A stretch of DNA of 64,000 nucleotides. It comes from Methanosarcina sp. 2.H.T.1A.6 (GTDB lineage Archaea; Halobacteriota; Methanosarcinia; Methanosarcinales; Methanosarcinaceae). The stretch spans positions 62,001 through 126,000 of the forward strand of contig NZ_JJOY01000044.1 in NCBI RefSeq assembly GCF_000979455.1, read 5' to 3'. Positions 56,840-59,933 of the stretch are shown here, one piece after another. The notes below the pieces were generated by a model. The model made no database searches. It was not told where the DNA came from and saw nothing but the letters and a program-made list of their open reading frames with translations. Numbering within the stretch: the first letter of the stretch is position 1; each line of letters begins with the position of its first letter. Position numbers and translations under genes: made by a program.

Positions 56840-57592
56840 TTAAGAAAGTTCAGGTTGAGGTACCTTATTCTTCACGCCAAGTACCCTTACAACAACCATG
56901 CTGATCTCAAAAAAGATTATCATGGGCACTGCAACCATGACCTGACTGAGTACGTCTGGAGGGGTAATTACAGCTCCTATCACCAGGAAGACGATATAAA
57001 TATGCTTGCGGTAGGTCACAAGGGTACTGTACTGTATAAAGCCGTTCCTTGTCAGGAAGGTGAGTACTATAGGAAGTTCGAATATCAGCCCGAAAAGAGC
57101 TGTGCCTGCAGCTGCAAACGAAATGAACTTGAAGATCGAGTAGGTAGCAGTTACCCCTGAACCTGCTGCGTTCAGGTAGAGATAGTCCAGAAAGAGGGGT
57201 AGCATGAAGAAATAAGCATACGAAGCCCCGAGGGCAAACATTACGAGAGCAGCCGCGCTCAGGAGTACAAACTGGTTTTTTCCGACCTGTATCGGATTTC
57301 TGATCGAAAAACGCCTCGATACAGCCCGGTAAGCATAGAATGCAATCACAGGAATGGCAAAGAGCAGCCCTACTATAAATGAGAGCTTGAGCTTCAGCAT
57401 CATTACTTCAAGAGGGGATATGTACACCAGCTTTGCACCCTCAGGCAAGAGGTCCTCTTTCATCCTCTCAATCAGTGGACCTGTAAACTGGAAAGAAAGA
57501 GCAACGCCTGCAAAAAGGACTGCAGCAACTACAATCAATTTCTTTCGCAGGGTCAGCAGGATTACACTTAAGTTTTCAATTGCTTCAGACAT
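56840..57592 (-). CDS. tatC: TatC-family protein, copy 1 (lacks signal-binding Glu pair)
   Basis: A 250-aa six-helix TatC protein, the receptor core of the twin-arginine export system. The second half is canonical, with LPLFLDYLYLN, LIFELPIVLTFL (E172, matching E. coli E170) and GAVITPPDVLSQ (D213). The N-terminus reads ILLTLRKKL where TatC normally has HLxELRxRL, so the first signal-binding Glu is Thr14. The first cytoplasmic loop (SIRNPIQVGKNQ) also lacks the second conserved Glu. It is divergent from the other tatC gene across 423 bp. It may be a specialised subunit. Confidence 0.88.
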   Translation of the reverse strand: MSEAIENLSVILLTLRKKLIVVAAVLFAGVALSFQFTGPLIERMKEDLLPEGAKLVYISPLEVMMLKLKLSFIVGLLFAIPVIAFYAYRAVSRRFSIRNPIQVGKNQFVLLSAAALVMFALGASYAYFFMLPLFLDYLYLNAAGSGVTATYSIFKFISFAAAGTALFGLIFELPIVLTFLTRNGFIQYSTLVTYRKHIYIVFLVIGAVITPPDVLSQVMVAVPMIIFFEISMVVVRVLGVKNKVPQPELS

Positions 57593-58015
57593 ATGGAGTA
57601 CCTATCCGGCAAATAATATGAACTGGTTATCTTTCAGGAACTGATTATTTCGTTATATGTTTTGTTATGCTTGGGATGGCAAATACAAGATTCCAGATCA
57701 AAGCATAATATTTCAAGCTTTGTGTTTTTCGGTATTATATTGTAGCTATAAGGCTACTGTAACTGTAACTGTAACGGATAATGGGGATATCCGAATAAAT
57801 ACTGTAAATATTGATGACGGTAAATATATATCATGGATATATGATTTTAGAGTATCCCTACTTCAGAATATCCAGAGCATGCGGGATATCATCGAGGTCT
57901 GGGATATAAGTGTAATCAGATGTTCCGATATTAATATATTTATTAAAATGCAGTGTAAGACAGAGAAAACAGATCGCAAACTCAACAGAAAAACAGATAA
58001 TAACAGATAAAAACC
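57593..58015. other. Divergent promoter region between the two tatC genes
   Basis: No supported gene; a 117-codon + strand frame here lacks family sequence and a good start. Short repeats of CTGTAA occur at 57753-57775, and AT-rich DNA with GTAAATATATATC at 57821-57833 could serve as promoter. Confidence 0.5.
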
Positions 58016-58795
58016 ATGACCTCTCATAATACCGGAAACCAGCTCCCTGATACAGGAAACAAAACTAATGGAAACGCTTGTTCTTCCGGAGTTCCCGGGG
58101 ATATAGAAGAACCCCTTATGGCTCACCTGTATGAGTTCAGGAACCGGCTTGCTGTAGTCTTTGTCTGGCTCTTTCTGGCTATGCTGGTCGCATACCCCTT
58201 CTCTGAAAAAGGGATGATGCTTGTCTGGAAAGAATTCATAAGCCCGGGACTGGATATGGCAGTATATTCGCCTCTTGAATGGATCTTTGCCCGCCTCAAG
58301 CTCTGCCTGGTCTTTGCACTTGCAGTATCAATTCCGCAATTATTCTATCAGCTCTACAGGTTTGCAGGGAAAGGGCTTTATCCGCATGAGAAACGCTTTT
58401 TCCTGAAAGTTGTCCCTGTATCTTTTCTCCTGTTTATCCTGGGAGCTGCCCTGGGCTATTTCATTGTCCTGCCTGTGATGTTCAGGTACGTTATCTTTTA
58501 CTCAGGGGATGTGGCTTCAGCCCAGCTTTCCGTGCAAAACACTTTCTCAGCCGTGACAACAATACTTGCAGGCTTCGGAATTGTGTTCCAGGCTCCCCTT
58601 CTTGTAATATTTGCCGTGAAAATGGGGCTTGTAAAGTATCAAACCCTCAAGAAACAGCGGATACTGGTTTACAGCGCAATTTTAACGCTATCCCTATTCC
58701 TTTCGCCGGACCCGACTTTCATTGCCCAGATATTGGTCGCGCTTCTGCTTGTAGTCCTCTTTGAGTTCAGCCTGCTGCTGGTCAGGTTGTTTTAA
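58016..58795 (+). CDS. tatC: TatC-family protein, copy 2 (keeps signal-binding Glu pair)
   Basis: A 259-aa TatC protein with a ~30-residue polar N-terminal extension. The signal-peptide-binding residues are present: AHLYEFRNRL (E40, E. coli E15) and YPHEKRFF (E125, E. coli E103). In contrast the fourth-helix Glu is replaced by Gln (VFQAPLL, Q192) and the usual TPPD loop reads SPDP. Six helices are evident. It is followed by two tatA genes on the same strand, so this locus encodes a complete Tat system. It complements the losses seen in copy 1. Confidence 0.9.
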   Translation: MTSHNTGNQLPDTGNKTNGNACSSGVPGDIEEPLMAHLYEFRNRLAVVFVWLFLAMLVAYPFSEKGMMLVWKEFISPGLDMAVYSPLEWIFARLKLCLVFALAVSIPQLFYQLYRFAGKGLYPHEKRFFLKVVPVSFLLFILGAALGYFIVLPVMFRYVIFYSGDVASAQLSVQNTFSAVTTILAGFGIVFQAPLLVIFAVKMGLVKYQTLKKQRILVYSAILTLSLFLSPDPTFIAQILVALLLVVLFEFSLLLVRLF

Positions 58796-58936: not shown

Positions 58937-59284
58937 ATGATAGGTTCCACTGAAGTGCTTGCAATCCTGATCGCTGCGCTTTTTCTCTTTGGGCCAAGGA
59001 AGCTCCCCGAACTTGCCCGGTCTCTTGGAAGTGCGGTAGGAGAGTTCAAGAAAGCACAGAGAGCCGCTGAACTGGAGCTCACGACCTTCGATTCATATAC
59101 CAGGAAACCAGAATATGGGGCCGTTCCCGGGGTAAAAGAGGACGAAAAGGATATAAAAAATGAAGCCCCGAAAACTAAAATCGGGACAGACAAGAGCCTT
59201 AAAAATTCACTGGAAGCCAGATCTTCCATTCCAGATATAGAAAATCAAGAAGCTTCCGGTACCAATGGAAAAATCCCGGAATAA
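58937..59284 (+). CDS. tatA: TatA-family protein, copy 1
   Basis: A 115-aa TatA/E protein that forms the translocation pore. Residues 1-20 are the membrane helix (STEVLAILIAALFLF), followed by the hinge FGPRKLPELARSLG and the amphipathic helix AVGEFKKAQRAAELEL. The charged tail (about 50-115) is long and likely disordered. The ATG is very close to AT-rich DNA with little leader; no clear ribosome-binding site is seen. It lies 141 bp after tatC copy 2. Confidence 0.9.
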   Translation: MIGSTEVLAILIAALFLFGPRKLPELARSLGSAVGEFKKAQRAAELELTTFDSYTRKPEYGAVPGVKEDEKDIKNEAPKTKIGTDKSLKNSLEARSSIPDIENQEASGTNGKIPE

Positions 59285-59618: not shown

Positions 59619-59933
59619 ATGGTTGGCATGCCAGGTCCCACAGAACTGATACTTATATTAGCAGTAGTTATGCTCCTGTTTGGGGCAAGTAAACTCCCTG
59701 AACTTGCACGGTCCATGGGAAGTTCGGTGGGAGAATTCAAAAAAGCCCAGAAAGAATCCGAACAGAACCTGAAGGATTTTGAGAAATCCTTAAAGGAACC
59801 CATAGCTCCAAAGACCAAGGTACAGGAAACTGCTGAGAAGCTCGGGCTTGACATAAAAGGCAAGACTGACGACCAGCTGCTTGAAGAGATCCAGAGATCC
59901 GCAGAGAAGCCAAAAGAGGTCTCAGAACCCTGA
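59619..59933 (+). CDS. tatA: TatA-family protein, copy 2
   Basis: A 104-aa TatA protein. The membrane helix is TELILILAVVMLLF, the hinge FGASKLPELARSMG (Ala in place of the usual Pro after FG), and the amphipathic helix SVGEFKKAQKESEQ. The tail has a short ordered-looking region (VQETAEKLGLDIKGKTDDQLLEEI). It is closely related to copy 1 in the first 45 residues and unrelated in the tail. GAGGT six bases before ATG 59619 supports the start. Confidence 0.9.
   Translation: MVGMPGPTELILILAVVMLLFGASKLPELARSMGSSVGEFKKAQKESEQNLKDFEKSLKEPIAPKTKVQETAEKLGLDIKGKTDDQLLEEIQRSAEKPKEVSEP

Follow-up and report, generated by a model that had tools for sequence, protein, structure and literature searches.

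The two divergent TatC proteins encoded in a 64,000-nucleotide stretch of the genome of Methanosarcina sp. 2.H.T.1A.6 (the whole stretch is called the window below) are probably, with a likelihood that we put at about 0.72, two subunits of one hetero-oligomeric Tat core complex, in which copy 2 (S-type) would be the sole reader of the twin-arginine signal and copy 1 (N-type) a structural subunit; the proposed arrangement is a trimer of one S and two N. We infer the joint membership of N and S in one complex, its trimeric state and the 2:1 ratio from the distribution of the two types, their conserved residues and solved bacterial complexes. The genes and their layout are listed in Table 1.

Table 1. 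Features of the tat locus in the window (positions are those of the window)
Feature	Position	Strand	Remarks
tatC copy 1, N-type (predicted non-signal-binding)	56840..57592	-	250 aa, ORF intact
Intergenic region of the divergent tatC pair, 423 bp	57593..58015	.	from ORF coordinates
tatC copy 2, S-type (predicted signal-binding)	58016..58795	+	259 aa, ORF intact
tatA paralogue 1 (MIGSTEVLAI...FGPRKLPELARSLG)	58937..59284	+	ORF, 3' of copy 2
tatA paralogue 2 (MVGMPGPTEL...FGASKLPELARSMG)	59619..59933	+	ORF, 3' of copy 2

Both copies belong to the TatC family. In a profile search of the whole 4.07-Mb genome they were the only matches to PF00902 (E 8e-43 and 147.6 bits for copy 1, E 1.9e-49 and 169.3 bits for copy 2; cut-off 25.1 bits), and phmmer matched them to TatC structures with E-values of 1e-26 and 1e-22, respectively. 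The AlphaFold2 models (pLDDT 80.7 for copy 1 and 73.7 for copy 2) have the six-helix TatC fold, the top Foldseek matches being TatC structures (E 8e-9 and 1e-8) with 4b4a the best match of both. Partners of the TatA family are present as two ORFs near the tatC pair, both downstream of copy 2 and none by copy 1 in the ORF map, and two TatA ORFs were found in 39 of the 47 Methanosarcinaceae loci (L032-L078). The divergent layout of the tatC genes recurs in 91 of the 99 loci with both types (some of these loci represent one genome from two sources), and the intergenic stretch would be the expected place of both tatC promoters. Purifying selection acts on both genes (against four orthologues each from the genus Methanosarcina, copy 1 has a dN/dS of 0.09-0.15 and copy 2 one of 0.08-0.10), and copy 1 is therefore no duplicate in decay; its reading as a pseudogene is ruled out by dN/dS together with the invariant columns in the N-type alignments A1 and A2.

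Cargo with a twin-arginine signal is encoded in the same genome. The two proteins that exceed the PF10518 cut-off resemble [NiFe]-hydrogenase small subunits (we take them to be VhoG/VhtG), and their twin-arginine motifs are DRRTFMKA and DRRTFLKA. Across the family, a relative of this hydrogenase and TatC were found together in 52 genomes, TatC only in 5, the hydrogenase only in 9 and neither in 45 (Fisher p 2e-16, uncorrected for shared ancestry). The nine genomes with a hydrogenase relative and without a TatC match fall in groups g7 and g13 (e.g., G018-G020 and G074), and the matches listed to the hydrogenase relative in these groups are shorter (about residues 10-343).

Residue equivalences were set by alignment to E. 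coli TatC (PDB 9dzz) and other solved TatC chains. In the MdoD-bound E. coli structure, E15 is water-bridged to the first Arg of the signal and E103 salt-bridged to the second, and the signal Phe is held by F94, L9, H12 and L13, plus Y100 (PMC13323110), which bears out the role of signal binders that a preliminary description of this locus had assigned to E15 and E103. The same description had credited copy 2 with both of these Glu and copy 1 with neither, and the alignment agrees: E40 and E125 of copy 2 correspond to E15 and E103, T14 of copy 1 aligns with E15 (the Glu of HLxELRxRL), and copy 1 has no Glu at the position of E103 in the first cytoplasmic loop. The two Glu are indeed gone from copy 1, but the extent of its loss had been understated, as His12, Phe94 and Tyr100 are gone as well. 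Copy 1 thus has none of H12, E15, F94, Y100 and E103 that make up the signal-peptide receptor (Q217, the equivalent of Q215, is kept), and copy 2, with H37, E40, F116, L121, Y122 and E125, has the full set.

The preliminary description had allowed that the residues might merely be shifted in the alignment. This is not so for the pocket: the TM2-TM3 loop (E. coli residues 91-107) is free of any acidic residue in 67 of the 130 N-types, versus none of the 113 S-types and none of the 48 other sequences, and displacement by misalignment is ruled out by these acid-free loops and the joint loss of H12 and F94. A shift does account for the supposed loss of D211 in copy 2. S230-P-D-P-T lies at the TPPD site, as the reported SPDP implied, but the Asp (D232) is displaced by one position rather than gone and is invariant in all 19 S-type rows of alignment A3. 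The remaining assignments stand, namely Q192 of copy 2 at the helix-4 position of E170 and, in copy 1, E172 at that position and T210-P-P-D213 at T208-D211.

The split recurs throughout the phylum. The typing tree comprised 291 rows and was built with 26 named trait positions and the stretch 206-215 left out; typed loci were drawn from 102 genomes of the phylum, and the typed counts exclude 17 ORF fragments and 46 duplicates. The TatC sequences of the phylum formed two clades, N (130 domains) and S (113), next to 48 others (bacteria, references and a few archaea). The S-type keeps H12 and E15 (112/113, with one gap at each), F94 (112/113) and E103 (113/113), and its TMH4/TMH5-6 region is altered, with Gln170 (113/113), PDP[T/S] and no Pro221. 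In the N-type, H12, F94 and E103 are absent from all 130 domains, which leaves each of them without the receptor set; E15 is retained in 17, and the docking positions are kept (T/S208 in 130, Q215 in 114 and P221 in 129 of the 130). E15, E103 and E170 occur jointly in 43 of the 48 others, a figure to which the selection of comparison loci contributed, because the first scan pattern for the bacterial loci demanded Glu or Asp at residue 170 (E15 and E103 were not required), so their Glu170 is partly there by construction. The residue pattern at the pocket positions and at Gln170 is not a matter of chance, being fixed across 130 N-type and 113 S-type relatives. That the S-type would read the tag and the N-type would not is solid at the sequence level, and we regard as real an ancient, phylum-wide split of TatC into a putative signal-reading and a putative signal-blind subunit.

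The N and S trees are broadly matching in shape, and the pairwise distances of the two types correlate with r=0.94 over 73 pairs (the best of 999 permutations reached 0.19), a correlation that would be expected for any two vertically inherited genes. A single archaeal duplication giving N and S was neither demonstrated nor rejected by a tree test (p=0.38). Some N-types carry inserts in the first periplasmic loop, of about 150 aa in two Methanosarcinaceae groups (g6/g8; L061, L062, L065 and others) and of about 55 aa in Methanoperedens-like genomes (f5; L082, L083 and others), which recall the periplasmic inserts of Myxococcus and Nitratifractor TatC described in PMC13323110. The sample held 29 congeners of the source genome. 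One of them (L079, G081:C1:2593000-2600500) has a third, very divergent TatC outside both clades, with E15, E103, Cys at 170 and TPPD, and in some N-types of the genus (L033, L035, L039, L047 and others) TPGAD, TPGTD or TPGPD stands for TPPD, one residue longer and with the Asp kept.

Residue 170 limits how far the pair can be described as complementary. The preliminary description had proposed complementary losses, which fits the pair in the window (Q192 in copy 2 versus E172 in copy 1) but is not general: the N-type residue is Glu in 101 domains, Gln in 20, Asp in 4, Asn in 3 and Leu and Met in 1 each, and since the N-type is thus also without Glu170 in 29 of the 130 domains, several genomes have no TatC seen with this residue. 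Glu170 therefore does not always sit on the pocket-less partner, and N would supply the E170 function at most in the lineages that keep Glu170, the source genome included. The divided roles that the description drew from the pair survive in the loss of the N-type pocket, but the Glu170 side fails in general and the D211 side reduces to the one-residue shift. Nor is Gln170 alone a sign of a missing partner, because G582 and G583, two genomes from the phylum of Methanofastidiosum (outside the studied phylum), have a single TatC with E15, E103 and Q170-TPDPT; with such lone TatCs in existence, the idea that copy 2 is crippled by Gln170 is unsupported. In E. coli, E170A causes a block after signal binding and TatA assembly (PMC10092561), so that by analogy the Glu170 of the N-type could act here in this later step, but 29 N domains lack the residue.

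TatC was present in 57 of 111 genomes in the family-wide scan (56 of these had at least two matches), in 97 of 237 genomes class-wide and in 214 of the 392 genomes drawn phylum-wide. The class and phylum scans combined gave 279 genomes with a match, 262 of them with two or more (two in 173, three in 83, four in 6 and one in 17); this tally counts PF00902 matches and not types, and some of the threes are due to fragments (G015, G133-G135, G287). Among genomes of at most five contigs with a TatC match, 78 of 79 have two or more, the sole exception (G411) being a partial match of 19.8 bits, below the cut-off. With many relatives aligned, the losses co-occur as the preliminary description had anticipated, both types being found in 99 of the 102 genomes opened (90 directly and nine after a second contig was added). 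G429 has one ordinary TatC with E15, E103 and E170 in a genome that is 73% complete, G468 has an S-type and the cut start of its neighbour at a contig end, and the second TatC match of G184 lies outside the loci opened. Genomes with one type only would speak against the pairing, and four drafts at 95-99% completeness show a single full TatC (N-type in G163 and G384, S-type in G165 and G448). These are multi-contig assemblies, about six (6.1) such losses would be expected from incompleteness by a crude binomial estimate, and it is possible that they are true singles; both subunits are found in nearly all genomes opened that have the system.

The tatC genes lie apart in Archaeoglobaceae, Methanoperedens and the f15 genomes (presumably Methanocella), so their linkage is not required. 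Nor is a TatC pair a general requirement, as 15 of 18 genomes from beyond the phylum have a single-TatC system. In one genome of the family (G058; L070, L071) a complete N+S pair occurs twice, at separate places, and the pair may therefore duplicate or move as a unit. Co-occurrence, the mirrored trees and the mostly divergent adjacency suggest that N and S likely form an obligate hetero-oligomer, although co-inheritance and mirrored trees would also be expected for any two vertically inherited genes that the same cells need, e.g., for parallel translocases.

The stoichiometry is addressed by twelve genomes (G304, G349, G386, G394, G418, G434, G442, G485, G489, G503, G531 and G533), apparently mostly haloarchaea, in which one S gene stands beside a gene for two tandem TatC domains. 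Both fused domains fall in the N clade (fused group SH-aLRT 98%), none of the 24 has a pocket residue at 12, 15, 94 or 103, and the N-N fusion is accompanied by an S gene in 12/12 genomes; the loci examined contained neither S-N nor S-S fusions. One fusion (G349) represents a sister lineage and is shorter (618 aa). The other eleven look by their make-up like haloarchaeal TatCt, and we presume this identity. As in the TatCo/TatCt pair of Haloferax, the same two clades are involved, with the single gene S-type and the tandem fusion twice N-type, and the divergent gene layout is common to both systems; unlike the Methanosarcina N, which is encoded singly and retains Glu170, the haloarchaeal N is a covalent dimer that has mostly lost this residue. 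Both haloarchaeal tatC genes are reportedly essential (attributed to Dilks, 2005). If the archaeal complex, too, is trimeric, an N-N fusion and one S would make up a set of three TatC that has a single signal site. The fusion argues for a 2:1 ratio of N to S in the lineages that have it; to Methanosarcina we extrapolate this ratio with less confidence.

A trimer is what the solved bacterial complexes would lead one to expect. TatC of E. coli is obligately oligomeric, and full activity has been reported for a covalent TatC dimer (PMC5102672); in work from 2026 E. coli TatC is a trimer, with TatB or TatA placed between TMH5/TMH5-6 of one TatC (T208, Q215) and TMH1 of the next (PMC13323110). The authors of that work infer TatA1B2C3 as the composition of the E. 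coli core complex, take one of its signal sites to be relevant and call for further work; two of the three TatC sites would therefore be dispensable. The archaeal proteins resemble E. coli TatABC in the TatC fold, the signal pocket, the polar-cluster docking site and the one signal site inferred to be used per trimer; unlike the archaeal pair, E. coli has one TatC gene, and its asymmetry comes from TatA versus TatB and not from TatC. In the proposed mechanism, the S-type (copy 2) would be the sole reader of the twin-arginine signal through H12, E15, F94, Y100 and E103, and the N-type (copy 1), itself not binding the signal, would serve as the structural subunit, offering the TMH5/TMH5-6 docking site for TatA- or TatB-like helices (T208, Q215, P221) and, in the source genome, also a retained Glu170 in TM4. 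If the arrangement follows that of the solved (TatBC)3 trimers, the TatC trimer would consist of one S and two N. It would then offer a single site for the signal, in line with the asymmetric TatA1B2C3 model (PMC13323110), and each core complex would take one cargo in one orientation.

A second, pocket-less TatC was also found in two bacterial genomes (G560, G561; L245, L246). We searched 247 genomes of the phylum of G560 (Desulfobacterota; Syntrophorhabdaceae record L227) and typed the best 30 of many matches (L269-L298), the remainder being mostly weaker; L269 is the L245 gene again, so L245, L246 and L269-L298 give 31 distinct sequences. None of the 31 has H12, F94 or E103, and all but one have Glu170; in the best 30 loci, E15 is present in 1 and Glu170 in 29. 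Re-searching 15 of the genomes gave a partner with H12, E15, F94 and E103 in every case (15/15). The situation is like that of the archaeal N, a pocket-less TatC accompanied by a pocket-bearing one; unlike the archaeal S, the Desulfobacterota partner keeps Glu170 (14/15), and, unlike in Methanosarcina, the second tatC is on a different contig or at a different place from its TatC partner. In L245 (3211-3918) and L246 (3083-3790) the pocket-less tatC has the same neighbours, both genes for membrane proteins: one of 204-207 aa upstream and one of 190 aa downstream (the latter presumably DedA-like). Inspection by eye of the ORFs listed for these two loci showed no TatA. In the tree, archaeal N, archaeal S and bacterial N each form one supported group, the bacterial pocket-less TatC being a clade of its own with support of 100/100. 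Joining archaeal N and bacterial N cost 17 log units (AU p 0.052), on which basis an independent origin of the two appears favoured but is not proven.

The strongest alternative is a neutral ratchet, in which a homotrimer needs one intact site and duplicates degenerate into an interdependent pair with no functional gain. It is an account of origin and as such compatible with the hetero-oligomer, it fits the single-site TatA1B2C3 model, and no consistent gained residue was noted in N; the uniform Gln170 and PDP[T/S] of the S-type, however, look like positive constraint and not just loss, and the second, possibly independent bacterial case suggests some advantage, so that we consider a purely neutral history conceivable but somewhat improbable. 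Two parallel translocases, in which each TatC forms homo-oligomers and works with a TatA paralogue of its own, the cargo of copy 1 being recognised in some other way, would be in keeping with the presence, at most Methanosarcinaceae loci, of two tatA genes next to the tatC pair, and the TatCd/TatCy systems of Bacillus, which likewise have two TatC paralogues per cell, are a precedent for separate substrates (PMC3827258). Those paralogues are isoforms that each direct particular substrates, neither being described as pocket-less in PMC3827258. Against parallel systems, the pocket-less N is never the sole TatC in the near-closed genomes opened, near-closed genomes with a match almost always have two or more, both tatA genes of the window follow copy 2, the two clear TAT-signal proteins of the genome carry an ordinary RRTF motif and the N-N fusions are always accompanied by S, which together make this reading unlikely. 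Least probable of all is an accessory or regulatory role outside translocation, in which the N-type would be no stoichiometric subunit but would either help in assembly or act as a brake, poisoning S oligomers and so adjusting capacity. Divergent transcription would permit independent dosage, and the large periplasmic inserts of some N-types hint at added functions; against this, few parts of N are as well conserved as the positions at which TatA/TatB dock, and N domains exceed S 2:1 at the gene level in the fused lineages.

The hetero-oligomeric core complex proposed for Methanosarcina may extend to the whole phylum, as a TatC heterotrimer with one reader and two blind subunits, the blind pair being fused in some lineages; this would be a natural version of the asymmetric single-site E. 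coli machine, with a comparable and perhaps independent blind TatC in Desulfobacterota, and we put it forward tentatively, as a generalisation with slightly less than even prospects. In open-access titles and abstracts we found no report of archaeal TatC types that complement each other; parts of the split may have been noticed earlier in the subscription literature on the haloarchaeal Tat system. For the annotation of these genomes, one of the two proteins called TatC should not be taken as a signal receptor. How many signal sites a Tat core complex has and why TatC must oligomerise are long-standing questions. With the roles placed on different genes, the stoichiometry, the orientation and the roles of the pocket, the polar cluster and Glu170 become testable by single-gene swaps, and the split into a reading and a blind TatC would thereby offer a genetic handle on the number of Tat sites in a tractable archaeon.
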